Origin: Thiobacillus sp. | GTDB taxonomy: Bacteria > Pseudomonadota > Gammaproteobacteria > Burkholderiales > Thiobacillaceae | Direction: 5' to 3' | Assembly: GCA_030692355.1 (NCBI GenBank) | Contig: JAUYCF010000067.1 | Location: forward strand, 1 to 33,968 | DNA length: 33,968 nt | Shown here: in pieces, positions 16,994 to 26,907 of the stretch | How the letters are laid out: each line of letters opens with the position of its first letter | Position numbering within the stretch: the stretch's first letter is position 1 | Translations under genes and position numbers: made by a program | Notes under the pieces: generated by a model | What the model saw: the letters and a program-made list of their open reading frames with translations, nothing else | Databases searched by the model: none | Told to the model about the DNA's origin: nothing

Positions 16994-18556
<1,563 letters not shown>

Positions 18557-19108
18557 CGGGCATCCGAAGCGGAAAGAATTTGTTCAGCGCTATCCGTGGC
18601 TTGTCGGTTTTTGACAATCACTTCGGCAACATCGTCAATTGCGCGGATTTTCGGTGGTAAATGATTGATGCCGAAAGGATTTACACCTGTCACTTGTCGG
18701 CGGTTCACGCGTGCAGCGCGAAGATTTGACGGTAAATCTGACGGTGGATTTGTTTTTGAAATCTCGGTGTCTGCATTTACCGTCGCATCCGTGCGGCTTC
18801 AGACGGGGCGCTTATTTGACGGTAGAAAAGTGGGGCATTGGCTGACAGGCAAGTCTGCCGTCAGGCAGCATTGGTCTCATGCGGAATCATCCTGGTCCCA
18901 GGTAGCATTCATAATTCCGGATAAAGTCGCGTCAGCTTGATCCGCGCATCCGAAGTTGTAAATTCCCAGTTAATCTTTTTCAAGCTGTTGTTTCGGCCTC
19001 GCTCCCATGCAGCCACGTCGGCCTTCATGCTCTCTTCATGTTGCCTATTCGGCGGCCAAGGCATTGCCCCTTTTCCAGGATTATTTCTCCGAAAAGGCAG
19101 GCATGCCG
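18557..19108. other. Intergenic region after guaA with repeated TTTGACGGTAAAT boxes
   Basis: No convincing gene was found in 552 bases between guaA and the end of jetD. It is AT-richer than its surroundings. The box ATTTGACGGTAAAT occurs at 18724-18737. A variant follows 12 bases on (18736-18749), a reverse-complement copy lies at 18775-18784, and another direct copy at 18814-18827. An imperfect stem (19060-19076 with 19090-19107) lies directly behind the jetD stop and may end the jet transcript, although no clear T run is seen. Confidence 0.5.
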
Positions 19109-20251
19109 CTACAAAACACCTTCCTGTTCACCCTTGACGTTGTGTTCGCGCATGTAGCCAAGCAGTGCGGACAGGGAATCGGGCAGGGCGTTTTGCGCAA
19201 GTTGCGCGATGCGCGTCTGGTCCCAGGCATTGAGCGCGCTACGGCTGGGCACGCCTTGCAGGGTGGCGATGTCCATATGCCAGGGCTGCCAGTCGAGTCC
19301 GGCGGCTTGCCATAGCGCCCCGGCCTGCAGGGCGATGGCGATGCCGGCGGGGTCGGGGTCGCAGGCGATGGCGGCGGGGGCGGGTGCCAGCGTCAGCAAG
19401 TGCGCGACGGCTTCGCGCCACCAGCCGGGCGGAAAACCGGGCAGCCAGATCATGCCGGCGTCGGCTGCGCGCGTGCGCGCGACGCGCTCGAAGCTGGTGC
19501 GGTTTTCCACCAGATGCCAGCGGGCCGGCGTGCCGTCTGCGGACGTGGCGGCAGCCAGGGTGGTGGGGGTGAGGGCGCAAAAATCGGCGCAGGCGGCGAG
19601 GTCGAGCACGCCTTGGGGCAGGCGCAGGGTGACCGGCGCGGCCACCAGCAGTAAGGGTGTGTGGCGTTCGATTCCCCATGCGGCGAGATCGGTTGCGAGG
19701 GCCAGCCATGCCCATTCGGCGGAGGTGACCGCCTTGGTGGCGCCGCGCGCAAACAGGGCGAAGTCGCGCTGGGTGCCGCTGCGCTGCTCAAGCTGCCAGC
19801 GGGCGAGTGCCGTGGCCAGGTCGGCGCGGGCCAGCGCGGTTTTGGGCGGCAGCGCATCGAGCGCGTCGAGCAGCGGCGTATCCGGCGGCAGGGCGTCGCG
19901 AAGGGTTTGCCAGTTCGCGGCCATCGCATCCGCATCCGCGATGCCGAGCGCTGCGCGCAGGGTGGCGGGTTCCAGAAACTGCACCCGGTACGGCCACCAT
20001 TCCGCGCGTTCGAACTTTTCGGTCAGCACCACCCAGCCGTTATTCAGCAGCCAGTCGAGCAGCGCCTGCGCCAGATTCTGCCGCCCCACGCCCGCGTCGC
20101 CCTTGAGCGTTTCCCAGCGGCTGTCGCCGCCGCGCCTGGCCCAGCGTTTCAGCAGACTCCGCCAGTCGTCGGGCAGGGTGTCGAGCCCGCGCGGCGGCTG
20201 GTCCGAAACGCGCTGCCGCCGGGTTTTGCTCTGTGGGGTGATGCGCAGCAT
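19109..20251 (-). CDS. jetD: Wadjet nuclease subunit JetD (Toprim-like, DUF2220 type)
   Basis: JetD is the endonuclease of Wadjet/MksBEFG systems: it cuts plasmid DNA after the SMC motor has extruded it. The 380-aa protein has an N-terminal winged-helix/arm part (about 1-200) and a C-terminal Toprim-like domain. The metal-binding Glu249 is in L-V-E-N-R-T-S-F and the D-x-D pair Asp298/Asp300 in A-C-D-P-D-P-A-G. All acidic residues are present, so it should be active. Its start lies 2 bases after the jetC stop, so it is the last gene of a tight operon. The exact Wadjet subtype is not assigned. Confidence 0.88.
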   Translation of the reverse strand: MLRITPQSKTRRQRVSDQPPRGLDTLPDDWRSLLKRWARRGGDSRWETLKGDAGVGRQNLAQALLDWLLNNGWVVLTEKFERAEWWPYRVQFLEPATLRAALGIADADAMAANWQTLRDALPPDTPLLDALDALPPKTALARADLATALARWQLEQRSGTQRDFALFARGATKAVTSAEWAWLALATDLAAWGIERHTPLLLVAAPVTLRLPQGVLDLAACADFCALTPTTLAAATSADGTPARWHLVENRTSFERVARTRAADAGMIWLPGFPPGWWREAVAHLLTLAPAPAAIACDPDPAGIAIALQAGALWQAAGLDWQPWHMDIATLQGVPSRSALNAWDQTRIAQLAQNALPDSLSALLGYMREHNVKGEQEGVL

Positions 20252-20253
20252 GG

Positions 20254-23025
20254 TCAGTGCGCCGTTGAGGTGTCGCGCATCAACACCTTCACGCCCGGCG
20301 CCCAGGCCTCGCCCGGACGTTTCTTGAACGTCACCAGGGTGAGCGTCGCCGGGTCGTAGATGTTGACGTTGTGCGTGACCGGCGTGGTGAGCAGGTATTG
20401 CGCGCGGGTGGCCTTGAGAAAACCCGACACGCGCTCGATGTTGACGATGTCCAGGTGCGCGAAGGGTTCGTCGATGAAGACGAAGCCGCCGGGGCGCGAT
20501 TCCTCCATCATCAGGGCCACCAGCAGGATCAGCGATTTCATGACCTGCTGGCCGCCGGAGGCGTCGCCGTCGTTCATGCCCATGAAGCCCTTGGCGTCGA
20601 AATCGAAGCGCACCGCCAGCCCGGCCTGCGCCAGCGTGACGTCGTCGTTGCCGAGCGCCACCGCCTCGTGCTCGACCCTGATGCCGGCGACTTCGCCCAG
20701 GGTCTTGAGGTTCCTGGCGTAGCGGCCGACGGTGTGGCGCAGCACCGCGATGTAGTTTTCGCGCGCGGCGCTGGTTTGTTCGCTGGCGAGTTCGTTGTCG
20801 CGCCGGCGCGCAGCCAGATCGCGCTCCATCTGCTGGTAATTGGCGGCGATCTTGTCGCGCAGGGCGACCACGGTGTCGTCGGTTTCCCAGCTTTCGTCGG
20901 CGAACTTGGTGTCGATTTCGGCGAGGCGGCGGTCGACGTTGGTCGCGTCGCGCCATTTTTCCACCAGCTGCTGGTTGGCCGAAGCATCGTGCCAGGCGGG
21001 CGGGAACTGGCGGCGTTCGCGTCGCAGCCGCAGGCGGCGGCGGATCTGTTCTTCGCGACCGGCCCGGTTTTCGCGCTCGGCGGTTTCCCTGTCGAGTCTT
21101 GCGATATCGGCGTCGAGCCGGGTGCGGCGGGAGCGGGCGGCGGTCACGGCTTCGTCGGCGGCTTCGCGTTCCTGTTGCGCGGCGAGGACGCCGTTGTCGC
21201 GGCGGCGCAGCACCAGCGCTTCGTACTGGCTGCGCGCCTCGGCGAATTCGGCGGCGCGTTGCGCCAGCTGCGCGGCGGCGGTCTCGCCGGTCAACTGCGC
21301 CTTGATGCCGTGGATTTTCCCTGCGAGTTCGGCCTGCTGGGCCTTGAGCGGCGCAAGCTGCTTGTCGAGCCGGGCGCGCTCGTCGCGCAGCGCGTCGAGC
21401 CGGGCGCGGCCGAAGCGCGCCTGTTCCGGCGCGGCATGGCGGCCACCGCGCCGTTCGCGCAGATAACCGTTACGCGTGATCCAGTCCTCGCCGCGCGGCA
21501 GTTTGCTGCCCGCCGCGACGTCTTCGACGCGGCGGGTGCGCTCCAGCGTGCGCAGCAGCCATTCCGGCACGGGGCTGGAAAACCGCACCACTTCGAGCAG
21601 CGAACCTTGCGGCGCGAGACCGGCGGTCACGCAGTCAGGGACGATGAAATTGCGGTAGCGCTGTTTCTCGCCGAGCGCCATGGCGCGTTCGGCGTCGCGC
21701 GCGTGCTGCAGCAGCACGATGTGGGCGAAGGGCGCGAGCGCGGCCTCGACCGCCGGCTGCCAGCTCGCGTCGACGATCTCGACGACGTCGGTGAGCAGGT
21801 GGTGGGCGATGCCGGCCTGTGTCAGCGCCTGCCGGAACGCGGCGACGTCGTGGGGGTCGGCGCGGCGTCCGGCGGCGAGGTTTTCCAGCATCTCGTCGAG
21901 CTGACCCTGGCGCTGCTGCAGGCCGGCGATCCTGACCAGCAGATCGGCGCGCTGGGATTCGAGGCGCTCGATTTCGTTTGCGTCGGCGAGCTGTCCGCCT
22001 GCCGCCTGCGCCTGTTCCTGCAGCCGTTGCTGCTGTTTGACGAGGACTTCCCAGCCGCCGAGTTCGCGGTTGATCTCGTTGAGGGCGTTGTTCTGGATGC
22101 GCTCGTTTTCCGCAGCCGCCTGTTTGCGCAGCTGTGCCTGGGCGAGCGCGGCGTCGAGCGCGTCGGATTCGATGTGCAGCACGGCGCGCTCGGCGCGTTT
22201 GGCGCGCCAGTCGCGGCGCTGGGCGAGCAGCGTGCGCGCGGCATGGTCGGCCTCGCGCTGCAGCAGGCTGTGTTCGAGGCGCGGGCGGATTTCGCTGACG
22301 AGTTCGACGCGCTCCTGATTGAGGCGCTGCCATTCGCGGTAGCGGTTGACCTTCTGCTCGTGCTTTTCGAGATTGTTGCCGAGCGCTTCGAGCTGGTTTT
22401 GCCCGGCGTCGAGTTCGCGCGTGGTGTGTTCCTGATGGTGGCGCGCTTCCTGGTAACGGTCGAGCACGTCCTTGTCGCCGAACACCTGGAACACAAGGTC
22501 GAGCAGTTCGCGCGGGGACAGTTCGCACAGCTTGTCGGTCTGGCCCTGTTCGAGCGAGAGCACGCGGGCGATGGCGGGCGATAGCCCGGCGCCGTGGAGG
22601 ATGCGCTGGTAGTCGCGCACACCGAATTCCTCGCCCTGTTGTTCGAGGTCGGCCAGGGCGACTTCGCCGTCGGCGATCCAGTATTTGCGCGTCCAGTCGC
22701 CGCCTTTCTTGTCGATGCGGCAGGCGAGCGTGATGCGGTCGCTGGTGTAGGGCAGGCCGAACGGGCGGCGGCTGCTGCCCGGCGGGCGCTGGTTGTCGAT
22801 CACGCCGCGCAGCCAGCAGAAGTCTTCGCCGTTGCGGCGCACGTAGCGTTTGTAGTCGCGCTTTTTCGAGCAGTCCAGCGCCAACAGGGTACGCAGCGCG
22901 TCGAGCAGCGTCGTCTTGCCCGAGCCGTTGGGGCCGGAAATGGTGACGATGGAGGCGTCGAGCGGCAGGCGGAAACTGCGCCAGAAATCCCAGTGAACGG
23001 TTTCGAGTTCGAGCAGGCGGAACAT
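20254..23025 (-). CDS. jetC: Wadjet SMC-like ATPase JetC (MukB-like)
   Basis: The motor of the Wadjet complex is an SMC dimer that extrudes loops of DNA. The 923-aa protein has Walker A GPNGSGKT at residues 31-38. Long charged coiled-coil stretches follow, with a likely hinge in the middle (about 400-520). The ABC signature S-G-G-Q-Q is at 823-827 and Walker B G-F-V-F-I-D-E-P at 847-854. All ATPase motifs are intact. It is shorter than MukB (about 1480 aa), as usual for JetC. Its ATG shares a base with the jetB stop. Confidence 0.93.
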   Translation of the reverse strand: MFRLLELETVHWDFWRSFRLPLDASIVTISGPNGSGKTTLLDALRTLLALDCSKKRDYKRYVRRNGEDFCWLRGVIDNQRPPGSSRRPFGLPYTSDRITLACRIDKKGGDWTRKYWIADGEVALADLEQQGEEFGVRDYQRILHGAGLSPAIARVLSLEQGQTDKLCELSPRELLDLVFQVFGDKDVLDRYQEARHHQEHTTRELDAGQNQLEALGNNLEKHEQKVNRYREWQRLNQERVELVSEIRPRLEHSLLQREADHAARTLLAQRRDWRAKRAERAVLHIESDALDAALAQAQLRKQAAAENERIQNNALNEINRELGGWEVLVKQQQRLQEQAQAAGGQLADANEIERLESQRADLLVRIAGLQQRQGQLDEMLENLAAGRRADPHDVAAFRQALTQAGIAHHLLTDVVEIVDASWQPAVEAALAPFAHIVLLQHARDAERAMALGEKQRYRNFIVPDCVTAGLAPQGSLLEVVRFSSPVPEWLLRTLERTRRVEDVAAGSKLPRGEDWITRNGYLRERRGGRHAAPEQARFGRARLDALRDERARLDKQLAPLKAQQAELAGKIHGIKAQLTGETAAAQLAQRAAEFAEARSQYEALVLRRRDNGVLAAQQEREAADEAVTAARSRRTRLDADIARLDRETAERENRAGREEQIRRRLRLRRERRQFPPAWHDASANQQLVEKWRDATNVDRRLAEIDTKFADESWETDDTVVALRDKIAANYQQMERDLAARRRDNELASEQTSAARENYIAVLRHTVGRYARNLKTLGEVAGIRVEHEAVALGNDDVTLAQAGLAVRFDFDAKGFMGMNDGDASGGQQVMKSLILLVALMMEESRPGGFVFIDEPFAHLDIVNIERVSGFLKATRAQYLLTTPVTHNVNIYDPATLTLVTFKKRPGEAWAPGVKVLMRDTSTAH

Positions 23026-23714
23026 CAGGCGTTGTCCTCGGATGCGGGTTCAGGTGCGTCGTTTGGAACCGCTTCCAGCATGCCGCGTTGTTTGAGCAGG
23101 TCGGACAGCGCGCCTTCGAGGATGCGCGGCGCGAATTCGGCGTAGTCGAAAGCGAGGTCGAGCAGCGGACCTTCGTGGATGACCTTGTTGCGGCGTTCGA
23201 TAAAGCCCAGCCGCGACAGCTGCGGCAGCGCGAACTGTTGCAGCCGTGCCTTGCCGCCGAGCAGCTTGCCGTAGTCTTCCAGCAGCACGTTTTCGGGAAT
23301 GCCGCGCGAAGCGTCGTGTGCGGCCGGGGTGAGCTTCACCGTTTCGAACAGTTCATTCTGCGTGTCGGTCTGCGTCGATTCGCTGGCCATCTGGCGCTCG
23401 CGCTTGGGCAGGATGATGAGCGCCCACAGGATCACCAGCAGCGCGGCGGCATCCTTGGGCAGGCCGATGTTCGAGGCCTGCCAGGCGTCGTTCTGCTCGA
23501 ACACGGCAGCTTCGTGCTCGCGGGCGAGCGCGATCGAAATGTGGGCGGCGAAGGGCTGCGCGAGCAGGCGCAGGCCGCTGGCGGCGAGCCGGATTTCGAC
23601 CTCGTCGCGAAAGCTTGTGTCGACCAGCAGGCGGCGGACTTCGAGGTCTTCGCGCGGCAGGTGGCGCAGCGCCAGCAGCCGGGCGATCAGGCGGGCGGCG
23701 GGGTCAGTATTCAT
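23025..23714 (-). CDS. jetB: Wadjet JetB (MukE-like, DUF4194 type)
   Basis: JetB is the MukE/KITE-like winged-helix subunit that bridges kleisin and SMC heads. The 229-aa protein is helical, with a winged-helix-like stretch (L-P-Q-L-S-R-L-G-F-I-E-R-R-N) near residues 175-190 and an acidic tail. A Leu-rich core region (A-L-L-V-I-L-W-A-L-I-I-L-P) is typical of this family. Identification rests on fold-like features, size and position between jetA and jetC. Its ATG overlaps the jetA stop as ATGA. Confidence 0.85.
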   Translation of the reverse strand: MNTDPAARLIARLLALRHLPREDLEVRRLLVDTSFRDEVEIRLAASGLRLLAQPFAAHISIALAREHEAAVFEQNDAWQASNIGLPKDAAALLVILWALIILPKRERQMASESTQTDTQNELFETVKLTPAAHDASRGIPENVLLEDYGKLLGGKARLQQFALPQLSRLGFIERRNKVIHEGPLLDLAFDYAEFAPRILEGALSDLLKQRGMLEAVPNDAPEPASEDNA

Positions 23715-25039
23715 TGGGTTTCGTCCAGGTTTGCGTCGCGCGGGGACGCGCCATCATCCGCGGCATGTGGGGTGGAGAGAATGCGGCCGGCACTGATTCG
23801 CGCGACCTCACCGCGTCCGACCGCCTCCATTTCCTCTCCCCATTCCAGCGTCACCGGCAGCCCGGCGAGCGGCGCAAGCTCGGGGCCGATATTGGTTTCG
23901 CCAATCAGCGCGAGCAGCGACAGGCGGTACGAAGCCGCGCCGAAGTGTCCGCCGACGACGGTATCGGCAACGCTCGCGGACGAGGCCAGACCGGCCAGCA
24001 TGCGGGTGAGTTCGAGCAGTTCGCGCGGCGGCTCCAGCGGGATGTCGCGGGTGTATTCGATTTCGGCGGGCGCGGGCATCGCCGAGGTCTTGCGGTTGGG
24101 CTGCTCGCGCGTGACGAATTCCTCGGTGTTGTCGAGCATCACGTCGGGCAGCACAAAGCTGCATTCCGGCGTTGTCGCCAACTGTCCGTCGGCCAATGCC
24201 GCGAGGCTGTCGAGCGACCGGGTTTTCAGCCAGGCCGCGAGCTCGGAGGTGGATAGCCCGCCCTGCGACAGATGCACCTGCTGGCGCGCAATCGCAGCCA
24301 GTTCGCGCTGGAACACCGATGCCATGCGCAACAGCCGCGACTGGCGCTGGCCGATGCTTTGCGCCAGCCGCCAGCTGTCGTCGTCGAGGCCGGCGTCGCT
24401 GAGATTTTTCATCACCGCGTTGGCGCGGTCGAGCCATTGCTGCACCGAGGCCAGTTTGGATTGCGCGGCACGCAGGCGGAATTCCGAACCGGAGGCCACA
24501 GCCTGCGCAAACTCTTCTTCCAGTTCGCCCAGCCGTGCCAGGAGGTGGGACAAGGCTTCCGGTGCGAGCTTGCCGACTGCCGCCCCGGCCGCGACCTGCG
24601 CCGCCAGAAAGCCCAGTTCGCCGTCCTGTTCGGCGTTGAACGCCAGCAGATTCGACAGCGCCGACAGCACCATGCGGCCCTCGGTCGAGAGCTGATAGAC
24701 GCGGCGTTCGCTGTCCCACAACAGCAAGGCATGTTCGCGCAGCCGCGCCAGCACGGTGTTGAGCTTGGTCTGCGACAGGTAGGCGAAATGCGATTCGAGC
24801 TCGCGCGGCGTCCACTCCGGCGCGTCGGCACGCAGGCCGACTTCGCGCAACACCATGAGGCGGATCAGCACTTCCTCGTCGCCGCCGCGAAACAGCGCGA
24901 TCAGCGCGCCGATCAGCGGGCGCGCGGCAAGCAGCGGAAACAGCGGCGGGATGTCTTCCGCGATCAGGCCCGGGGCGAGAAATTCCGACAGGCTTTCCCG
25001 GGCTAGCTTGGTGGGGGGAATGCCGGCAGCGTCGGTCAT
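23711..25039 (-). CDS. jetA: Wadjet JetA (MukF-like kleisin)
   Basis: JetA is the kleisin that closes the SMC ring. The 442-aa protein starts with a winged-helix domain (about residues 20-130, with L-S-Q-T-K-L-N-T-V-L-A-R-L-R-E). A helical middle follows (about 140-290), then a C-terminal part that probably contacts JetC. It does not look like the DUF3375 type I JetA, so another subtype is likely; this is a judgement from memory. ATG 25039 is set by ATGA overlap with vapC, giving direct translational coupling to the toxin gene. Confidence 0.82.
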   Translation of the reverse strand: MTDAAGIPPTKLARESLSEFLAPGLIAEDIPPLFPLLAARPLIGALIALFRGGDEEVLIRLMVLREVGLRADAPEWTPRELESHFAYLSQTKLNTVLARLREHALLLWDSERRVYQLSTEGRMVLSALSNLLAFNAEQDGELGFLAAQVAAGAAVGKLAPEALSHLLARLGELEEEFAQAVASGSEFRLRAAQSKLASVQQWLDRANAVMKNLSDAGLDDDSWRLAQSIGQRQSRLLRMASVFQRELAAIARQQVHLSQGGLSTSELAAWLKTRSLDSLAALADGQLATTPECSFVLPDVMLDNTEEFVTREQPNRKTSAMPAPAEIEYTRDIPLEPPRELLELTRMLAGLASSASVADTVVGGHFGAASYRLSLLALIGETNIGPELAPLAGLPVTLEWGEEMEAVGRGEVARISAGRILSTPHAADDGASPRDANLDETQ

Positions 25040-25440
25040 GTGTCCTGAACCCAATTTTCGACCAAGAGTCCGGGGTAATCCCTGAAATCCGCTTCGTTGT
25101 TGGTGACGAGTGTGAGGCCGAGGCTGGCGGCGTGCGCGGCGACCAGGCGATCCAGCGCGTCGCGACGGCGGTCGCGGACGGCGGCGGCGAAAACCCCGTA
25201 TTTCACGGCGACAGTGTTATCGAGCGGCAGCACAGGCAGATAGGTCAGTAAATCATCCAGCGCACGCTGGGCCTCGTGCTTGATGCTTGGGTCACGCTCG
25301 ACGCCGTGTCGCAATTCAGCCAGGGTAACAACGGAGATAACCAGATCGCCATAATCAAATTCCTGAAAGCGGTGCAGCAGTTCGGGCGGATGGCGTTGGA
25401 TGAGGTGGACGCAGATGTTGGTGTCGAGCAAGTAGCGCAT
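25036..25440 (-). CDS. vapC: VapC-family PIN-domain toxin
   Basis: A Mg2+-dependent PIN-domain RNase of the VapC/FitB type, which usually cleaves tRNA or rRNA. The 134-aa protein keeps the acidic residues: Asp6 (L-L-D-T-N-I), Glu42 (T-L-A-E-L-R-H-G), Asp97 (L-D-R-L-V-A-A-H-A) and Asp118 (T-N-N-E-A-D-F). The ATG at 25440 comes 4 bases after the vapB stop. The stop overlaps the jetA ATG (ATGA), so toxin and Wadjet translation are physically linked. The toxin looks intact. Confidence 0.93.
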   Translation of the reverse strand: MRYLLDTNICVHLIQRHPPELLHRFQEFDYGDLVISVVTLAELRHGVERDPSIKHEAQRALDDLLTYLPVLPLDNTVAVKYGVFAAAVRDRRRDALDRLVAAHAASLGLTLVTNNEADFRDYPGLLVENWVQDT

Positions 25441-25444
25441 GAGC

Positions 25445-25744
25445 TTACTTGTCGCCCACCGGTTTGTACTCTGGACTGTTTTGATGAACCGCGGCGCTTT
25501 CACCGAAGCCGCTCCAATCGCGTTCTTTCTGCTCATGGAATTCGCGGCCTTCGGCCATAAAACCTGGCGGGAAGGCCGCGAACGCTTCGGCCAGCCCGGT
25601 CAGCTTGCGCTTGACGATCGGGCGCAGCACCAGGGTGTCGCCGACTTTTTCAATCTCGATATCCTGGCCGGCTTCGACGATGGCCAACTCCTTGGGAATG
25701 CGGACTGCCAGCGAGTTGCCGCTTTTGAAGACGCGTGTGAGCAT
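25445..25744 (-). CDS. vapB: VapB-family AbrB-type antitoxin
   Basis: A 99-aa antitoxin. Residues about 1-48 form the AbrB/SpoVT (swapped-hairpin) DNA-binding domain (K-S-G-N-S-L-A-V-R-I-P-K-E-L). The C-terminal half should wrap the VapC active site. ATG 25744 is preceded by AGGAGG with a short spacer. The upstream palindrome is a likely VapB(C) operator. It is the first gene of the vapBC-jetABCD run, 58 bases after the prfB stop. Confidence 0.92.
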   Translation of the reverse strand: MLTRVFKSGNSLAVRIPKELAIVEAGQDIEIEKVGDTLVLRPIVKRKLTGLAEAFAAFPPGFMAEGREFHEQKERDWSGFGESAAVHQNSPEYKPVGDK

Positions 25745-25756
25745 GGGGGCCTCCTG

Positions 25757-25774
25757 TGTATATACAGGATATAC
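25757..25774 (-). promoter_or_regulatory. Palindromic operator in front of vapB
   Basis: GTATAT (25758-25763) and ATATAC (25769-25774) form a perfect inverted repeat with a 5-base spacer. TGTATATACA (25757-25766) is itself a perfect palindrome. It lies just upstream of the vapB RBS and overlaps a probable -10, as expected for a VapBC autoregulatory site. It would control the whole six-gene run if no other promoter exists. Confidence 0.6.
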
Positions 25775-25802
25775 GTCTGCCACGCCGGGCGCAAGCCTTT
25801 GT

Positions 25803-26907
25803 TTACACGCCCTGTTTCAGGCTCGCCTCGATGAAGATATCGAGGTCGCCGTCGAGCACCTTCTGCGTGTTGGTGGCTTCGACGTTGGTACGCAGGTCCT
25901 TGATGCGCGACTGGTCGAGCACGTAGCTGCGGATCTGGTGGCCCCAGCCGACGTCCGCCTTGCCGGCTTCGAGCTTGTCCTGCTCGACCTGGCGGCGGCG
26001 CAGCTCGGCTTCGTACATCTTGGATTTCAGCATCGACATCGCCTCGGCGCGGTTCTTGTGCTGCGAGCGGTCGTTCTGGCACTGCACCACGATGCCGCTG
26101 GGGAGGTGGGTGATGCGCACCGCGGAATCGGTCTTGTTGATGTGCTGGCCGCCGGCGCCGGACGCGCGGTAGGTGTCGACGCGCAGGTCGGCCGGGTTGA
26201 TGTCGATCTCGAAGGAATCGTCGATTTCCGGATAGACGAATATGCTGGCGAAGCTGGTGTGGCGCCCGCCCGACGAGTCGAACGGCGACTTGCGCACCAG
26301 GCGGTGCACCCCGGTTTCGGTGCGCAGGGTGCCGTAGGCGTAGTCGCCCTCGATCTTGATGCTGGCGGATTTGATGCCGGCGACGTCGCCGTCCGATTCT
26401 TCCAGCAGCTCGGCCTTGAAACCCTTGCGTTCGGCGTATTTCAGGTATTGCCGCAGCAGCATCGACGCCCAGTCGCAGGCCTCGGTGCCGCCGGCGCCGG
26501 CCTGGATGTCGATGAAGCAGTTGTTGGGGTCGGCCGGGTGGTTGAACATGCGGCGGAATTCCAACGTGGAGACTCCTTTCTCGATGGCGGCGATGTCGGC
26601 CTGCACGGCGGCAAGGGTGTCGTCGTCGTTCTCCTCGCGCGCCATCTCGAACAACTCGCCAGCGTCCTTGAGGCCCGACGCCACGCGGTCGAGCACCAGC
26701 ACCACGTCTTCCAGCGACTTGCGTTCGCGGCCGAGTTCCTGCGCCTTCTCGGCGTCGTTCCAGAAATCCGGCGCTTCGGCCAGGCGGCTGACTTCTTCCA
26801 GGCGGTCTTTCTTTACTGCGTAGTCAAAGAAACCCCCTGAGTTGGGTGGCACGCTCGCCCAGGTCGGCGAGTTTGGATTCGATCTGATTGAGGCTTTCGG
26901 CTTCCAT
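25803..26907 (-). CDS. prfB: Peptide chain release factor 2, with programmed +1 frameshift
   Basis: RF2 ends translation at UGA and UAA. The first 27 codons (from ATG 26907) end at an in-frame TGA (26826-26824). The slippery CTT TGA C is preceded by the internal Shine-Dalgarno AGGGGG, the classical RF2 autoregulation site. Reading continues +1 as D-Y-A-V-K-K-D to the stop at 25803, giving 367 aa. The GGQ loop (G-A-G-G-Q-H-I-N) is present. The stop-codon recognition region contains S-P-F-D, as in the S-P-F type of RF2. Confidence 0.96.
26824..26842 (-). promoter_or_regulatory. RF2 recoding signal
   Basis: On the minus strand AGGGGG is followed by TTT, CTT, TGA and C. The internal Shine-Dalgarno spacing and the slippery CTT before the UGA match the known bacterial prfB recoding element. 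Low RF2 levels favour the +1 shift. Confidence 0.93.

Follow-up and report, generated by a model that had tools for sequence, protein, structure and literature searches.

A shared insertion hotspot behind prfB probably accounts for the vapBC-jetABCD gene array of a Thiobacillus genome

We analyzed a stretch of 33,968 nucleotides (nt) from Thiobacillus sp. (GenBank assembly GCA_030692355.1, contig JAUYCF010000067.1, positions 1–33,968), termed here the window, in which six genes run on the minus strand in the order vapB-vapC-jetA-jetB-jetC-jetD, placing a VapBC toxin-antitoxin pair in front of a Wadjet-like operon. A sequence-only reading of this DNA had taken the six genes for one integrated unit, in which VapB levels would control both toxicity and defence, or VapC would guard the jet genes against loss. 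The best reading of the locus is instead that two modules, each of a known kind, share a hotspot at prfB, the gene for peptide chain release factor 2. Because vapBC and jet come, go and swap order behind prfB, we consider it probable that they are separate modules using a common insertion hotspot 3′ of this gene and not a built-in guard; a guard or dual-control interpretation appears unlikely.

Results

Arrangements behind prfB in the genus

We surveyed the DNA 3′ of prfB at 50 prfB loci from 49 of the 56 genomes of the genus and found vapBC or window-type jet after prfB in 20 of them. The order prfB-vapBC-jet was observed at three loci (the window, G000 in our numbering; G452; and contig C49 of G488, a bin holding two prfB loci), and the order prfB-jet-vapBC at four (G460, G461, G486 and G490, the last on two contigs). 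Four loci with the 3′ side seen carried jet without vapBC (G470, G446, G455 and, on two contigs, G451), and six carried vapBC without jet (G447, G450, G457, G459, G465 and G494), with an N gap in vapB of G450. Contigs ended inside jet at three loci (G489, G448, G487), vapB remnants were present at two (G445, G471), and 27 had neither module, with pepN next or near in 18 and other genes such as recQ in nine. The second prfB locus of the G488 bin (L206, contig C105) carried a different jetA-like gene, only 49% identical to window jetA. The observed separability, with six genomes having vapBC without jet, four having jet without vapBC and four having vapBC after jetD, speaks against the proposed integrated regulator or guard, and on the first of these counts we rejected a guard resembling CreTA.

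Across the family, window-type JetC was present in 15 of 117 genomes, namely G416 and 14 members of the genus, a count that is our own reading of 30 genomes with matches, the remainder being weak and SMC-like. VapC was detected at E ≤ 1e-15 in 43 of the 117, and 10 of the 18 fetched family loci with vapB/vapC of the same family hold no prfB. G403, from another genus, has prfB-vapBC without window-type JetC. Other cargo near prfB included a BrnT toxin (L168:1230–1511), a second PIN-domain gene beyond recQ (L181:3242–3670) and, directly ahead of jetA, a DUF4276 gene (L043:8384–8971).

Layout of the locus in the window

The gene order, the strand and the spacings of +4, −4, −4, −1 and +2 nt given by the sequence-only reading were borne out by the open reading frame (ORF) coordinates, and all six genes are complete ORFs with start and stop codons. 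The features, in the direction of reading, are the following (aa, amino acids).

25803..26852, minus strand: prfB, peptide chain release factor 2 (PCRF 5.3e-54 and RF-1 1.2e-42 over 25806–26795)
25758..25774, minus strand: palindrome GTATATCCTGTATATAC, presumed VapBC operator at the vapB promoter, 13 nt before vapB
25445..25744, minus strand: vapB antitoxin, 99 aa, MazE/AbrB-type DNA-binding domain (PF04014 3.7e-10)
25036..25440, minus strand: vapC toxin, 134 aa, PIN domain (PF01850 6.4e-18; solved VapC chains to 2.8e-17)
23711..25039, minus strand: jetA-like gene, 442 aa, presumed kleisin from position and size
23025..23714, minus strand: jetB-like gene, 229 aa, presumed KITE subunit, the window protein having no match
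20254..23025, minus strand: jetC-like SMC ATPase, 923 aa (SMC_N 1.1e-15; PADLOC JetC1 2.3e-18)
19109..20251, minus strand: jetD-like Toprim nuclease, 380 aa (PADLOC JetD1 4.3e-13, residues 189–379)

The 3′ end of prfB lies 58 nt upstream of vapB on the same strand and had been overlooked when the palindrome was named as the only evident promoter/operator. A terminator scan of 18400–26000 listed seven sites, all on the plus strand, and with prfB upstream it cannot be presumed that VapB alone controls jet. A sigma-70 scan returned no site, not even at vapB, and is uninformative on promoters in this G+C-rich DNA. Rfam gave nothing at gathering thresholds within 18400–26900, and the 20 largest of 49 repeat families (18400–26000) included no direct repeats flanking the operon.

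Downstream of jetD, guaA follows in convergent orientation (region 18557–19108 of the window), a position often occupied by pepN or recQ in those relatives whose 3′ side was covered. Since guaA follows jetD and the pepN of the same genome lies on another contig (C51), the 3′ side of the window locus seems rearranged.

The junction of vapC and jetA

In the window the vapC stop overlaps the jetA start by 4 nt. Ten free-standing or jet-first copies of VapC end in ENWV (eight copies) or ENWVQ (two), whereas the three vapBC-first copies have lost the usual stop, are 3–6 residues longer and end in ENWVQDT (window), ENWVQNAWPK and ENWVRPA; all three overlap jetA. Where no vapBC stands in front, the presumed jetA start overlapped or immediately followed the prfB stop at all 10 genus loci examined, with GTG as the start in two of these, and the amino terminus of window JetA differs from that encoded at the vapBC-less loci. 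As jetA begins beside the prfB stop where no vapBC intervenes, close coupling to the gene in front is predicted to be a habit of jetA itself.

VapBC as a module of its own

An AbrB/MazE-type antitoxin gene precedes a PIN-domain toxin gene, as expected of VapBC, with scores under the NCBIfam cut-offs for both VapB (NF040493, 52.2 bits, cut-off 60) and VapC (nearest model of the tRNA(fMet) type, 106.5 bits, cut-off 140). The palindrome was found upstream of all 13 related vapB genes examined, one copy having a single change. It is kept by free-standing vapBC and is also present at the four jet-first loci, where vapBC after jetD carries its own copy. We infer that VapBC is autoregulated at this palindrome, and VapC would act as an RNase.

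The VapC tree comprises two clades, each with vapBC-only, vapBC-first and jet-first loci. These correspond to two alleles (window 25036–25744; L088, L091 and L167 versus L092, L094 and L163). Between the clades, nucleotide identity in mid-vapC is 30–63% per 60-column block, and that of the vapC 3′ end and vapB is ~78–98%, except for the 3′ block of vapB at 70–75%. The VapB segment AAFPPGF/AMFTPDF changes in step with the allele of VapC, the pattern expected had recombination swapped the interface between toxin and antitoxin.

Trees, co-occurrence and selection

The three vapBC-first loci do not form one group in the jetC tree: the window is sister to the vapBC-less G470, the C49 locus of G488 is sister to G487, and G452 falls near the vapBC-less G451 without resolved placement. 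Mapped on the prfB tree, the presence of jet takes 10 changes and that of vapBC 11. Purifying selection acts on both modules, with median ratios of non-synonymous to synonymous substitution (dN/dS) of 0.13 for vapB, 0.21 for vapC, 0.14–0.18 for jetA to jetC and 0.28 for jetD; the vapB set excluded G450 for its Ns, and the jet and prfB sets came from up to eight chosen genomes.

Two sets of observations weigh against separate modules. The vapC-jetA junctions of the window and G452 are homologous despite VapC proteins of different clades; judging from this likeness, the junction appears to have lasted or spread, and the combination of one junction with two VapC clades suggests that recombination at the prfB site probably shuffled the alleles. 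In addition, jet and prfB-linked vapBC co-occur in the genus more often than chance would give, with both at seven loci, jet only at four, vapBC only at five and neither at 29 (Fisher p 0.0035, which ignores kinship). This table of 45 rows omits G489, G448 and G487, with the jet 3′ side unseen, the G488 locus with the other jetA-like gene and G494, with a prfB piece shorter than 500 nt. Of six independent pairs on the prfB tree, an average of 4.4 agreed in direction, 0.1 went the opposite way and 1.5 showed no difference, and a tree-aware sign test had a median p of 0.125 (range 0.0625–0.375). A hotspot shared in certain lineages, or an addiction effect of vapBC on adjoining DNA, would explain the association without a regulatory link.

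Wadjet-like character of the jet genes

JetC is an SMC/MukB-like ATPase in which Walker A (GPNGSGKTT), the signature (SGGQQ) and Walker B (FVFIDEP) can be read directly. Its match to LmuB (8.3e-18) is almost equal to that to JetC1, and a search against solved structures (PDB) returned one JetC chain, weakly (8e-4). JetD is recognized as a Toprim nuclease by the JetD1 match in its carboxy-terminal half. Residues E249, D298, D300, K373, E375, Q376 and E377 are invariant in seven aligned homologues, and we take the acidic residues and the K-x-E-Q-E motif to be the functional ones. In Pfam, window JetD gave only AAA_16 (1.3e-4, under its cut-off); of the seven homologues, two matched DUF2399 and one JetD_C (3.6e-4, under cut-off), neither of which is found in window JetD.

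Window JetA matched no Pfam, NCBIfam or Jet profile. Its sole PADLOC hit was JukB (0.0057), and in the PDB it matched a regulator (7e-4), which we take to be of the winged-helix kind. Window JetB likewise matched no Pfam, NCBIfam or Jet model; weak DUF4194 matches appeared in four of 27 aligned JetB homologues (best 2.5e-4), and some Lysobacter relatives of JetB carry DUF4194 as their source name. Comparison with canonical DUF4194 proteins by hhalign gave JetB a probability of 3.6%, and profile comparison of JetA and JetB with these proteins and the presumed JetA neighbours upstream (one upstream row under 250 aa left out) lent no support. PDB searches with JetA, JetB and JetD, as single sequences and as alignments, returned no Jet chain. 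In alignment A1, window JetA stands without its first residue.

The four-gene A-B-C-D order is found in the window and in relatives, the identity of JetA and JetB being presumed from position. The Wadjet label is carried by the weak JetC and JetD matches and not by JetA or JetB, which match no Jet model, and this combination indicates a divergent Wadjet/MksBEFG-like system. By these comparisons the window jet represents a second, divergent family of this kind, whose JetABCD would restrict plasmids. Canonical DUF4194 exceeded its cut-off in 23 of 150 genomes of the order, and four genomes (G032, G046, G056 and G077) carry a window-type jetA in addition to a DUF4194 match elsewhere.

Window-type JetA was found in 61 of 399 genomes of the order, and a class-wide search for JetC at E ≤ 1e-60 identified at least two of 369 genomes, the source genome being included in both counts; the latter is a lower bound, at most two candidates having been scored per genome. 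Among the matches listed (120 of 2195), the relatives of the JetB of G867, the more distant of these two genomes, include Lysobacter and other named genera outside the order. Against plasmids, JetC matched two records, each partially and at less than 60% identity.

Jet loci beyond the genus

At the order level we fetched 60 jet loci outside the genus with flanks of at most 4 kb on the upstream and 12 kb on the downstream side, some of them shortened by contig ends. With a VapC model derived from the window VapC and 30 VapCs of the family, a co-directional VapC near jet was detected at none of the 60, although PIN toxins far from this group could escape. The recurrence at unrelated jet loci that an integrated unit would predict thus largely failed to appear. 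At one locus, a VapC-like ORF lies ~3.6 kb away in the opposite orientation. At 13 loci outside Thiobacillus/Hydrogenophilales prfB precedes jetA, with other DNA between them in two, and no window-like vapBC was found in these 13 (two on contigs shorter than 4 kb).

A JetD homologue was found at 12 of the 60 loci and not in the fetched stretch of the other 48, which by gene content look like three-gene operons of the MksBEF type. We rejected a 384-aa ORF following jetC in several relatives as a divergent JetD: the two cases examined look otherwise, and we take them to be RlmL-type methyltransferases. Gaps of ~450–810 nt, leaving room for small extra genes inside the operon, occur between jetA and jetB (L216, L219, L222, L228, L229, L238, L254) and between jetB and jetC (L216, L220, L223, L227, L231).

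Discussion

The arrangement behind prfB probably arose as follows. Two independent modules would have landed at the 3′ side of prfB, one an autoregulated VapBC cassette with its own promoter/operator and the other a divergent jetABCD lacking space for a separate promoter, in which jetA would start on or next to the preceding stop, ancestrally that of prfB and here that of vapC. The six genes would probably be read from the prfB and vapB promoters together, with translational coupling across the gene overlaps. VapBC would be self-neutralising, independent of jet, and an effect of VapB on jet expression would be a by-product of position, though some modulation may occur. Of the coupling proposed earlier, this reading keeps two points: the six genes, all in one direction and overlapping or abutting, can be carried on one transcript, and vapBC comes first at three loci.

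Among the alternatives, a selfish linkage fares best, and we hold it as a tentative possibility. An addictive vapBC would make deletions spanning the locus costly, so that jet survives longer in either order, with no action of vapBC on jet; this would account for the co-occurrence and for both orders being kept, and further toxin genes are found near prfB. Yet the four vapBC-less jet loci persist, a shared site alone yields adjacency, and in G452 and G460 the jet genes seem damaged although vapBC lies next to them. In G452 (L088), which has vapBC in front, the jetD match covers the last 33 codons only, and a broken jetA frame was seen in G460 (L090), as was a split jetC in G455 (L099); these assemblies are drafts, in which sequencing error is possible.

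A functional unit, in which VapB levels govern both the toxin and Wadjet or VapC punishes jet loss, is improbable. The vapC-jetA overlap at three loci, the positive co-occurrence in the genus and the purifying selection on both modules are what such a unit would show, but each module exists in the genus without the other, their order swaps, in G452, with vapBC in front, the jetD match is confined to the last 33 codons, none of the 60 loci outside the genus has a detectable co-directional VapC, and prfB lies upstream on the same strand. We give equally little credence to selected togetherness, in which, at vapBC-first loci, loss of the vapC stop and the resulting overlap with jetA would tie JetABCD synthesis to VapBC autoregulation, such that stress or plasmid entry lowering VapB raises both toxin and plasmid-cleaving complex. 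An assembly chimera joining two loci at the vapC-jetA join, which the draft state of the source genome (117 contigs) and guaA after jetD, versus pepN or recQ in relatives, might suggest, is scarcely credible and was rejected, since two further contigs from the genus (G452:C156 and G488:C49) show this gene order and the prfB side is conserved.

Two modules at a common hotspot, our preferred reading, can be set beside known systems. With Wadjet type I, the name given to the MksBEFG of C. glutamicum in the available part of PMC10123090, the window shares the A-B-C-D order, an SMC ATPase and a Toprim nuclease, its best Jet matches being JetC1 and JetD1. It differs in that JetA and JetB match neither Jet nor canonical profiles, in a JetC of 923 aa versus 1097–1215 positions in the listed JetC1 models, and in the 48 of 60 order-level relatives lacking JetD in the fetched stretch. 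These 48, with no JetD found beside jetABC, resemble the three-gene, nuclease-free MksBEF of Pseudomonas, a likeness of gene content, whereas jetD is full-length in the window. VapBC systems of type II (tRNA-fMet VapC group) share the MazE/AbrB antitoxin, the PIN toxin and the palindrome before vapB; the window VapC differs in its lost stop and jetA overlap and in scoring under the NCBIfam cut-offs. CreTA likewise adjoins a defence system, but its antitoxin depends on Cascade, while window-type vapBC exists without jet. According to the available part of PMC12737573, the CreTA antitoxin RNA works with Cascade, and loss of Cascade frees the toxin. The available text of a HicA survey (PMC10865869) reports that clustering of toxin-antitoxin genes is common and describes fusions of SMC with HicA. 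We found no VapBC-Wadjet unit in the open-licence literature searched, and none is described in the available parts of PMC10865869 and PMC12375680.

A convincing 'guard operon' can thus arise from two modules at one insertion site. The locus also brings to light a Wadjet-like family whose JetA and JetB escape the PADLOC and Pfam models used. Behind one housekeeping gene, the genus offers a natural series of vapBC-jet, jet-vapBC, each module alone and neither, in which the stabilisation of a neighbouring defence system by a toxin-antitoxin pair can be tested.

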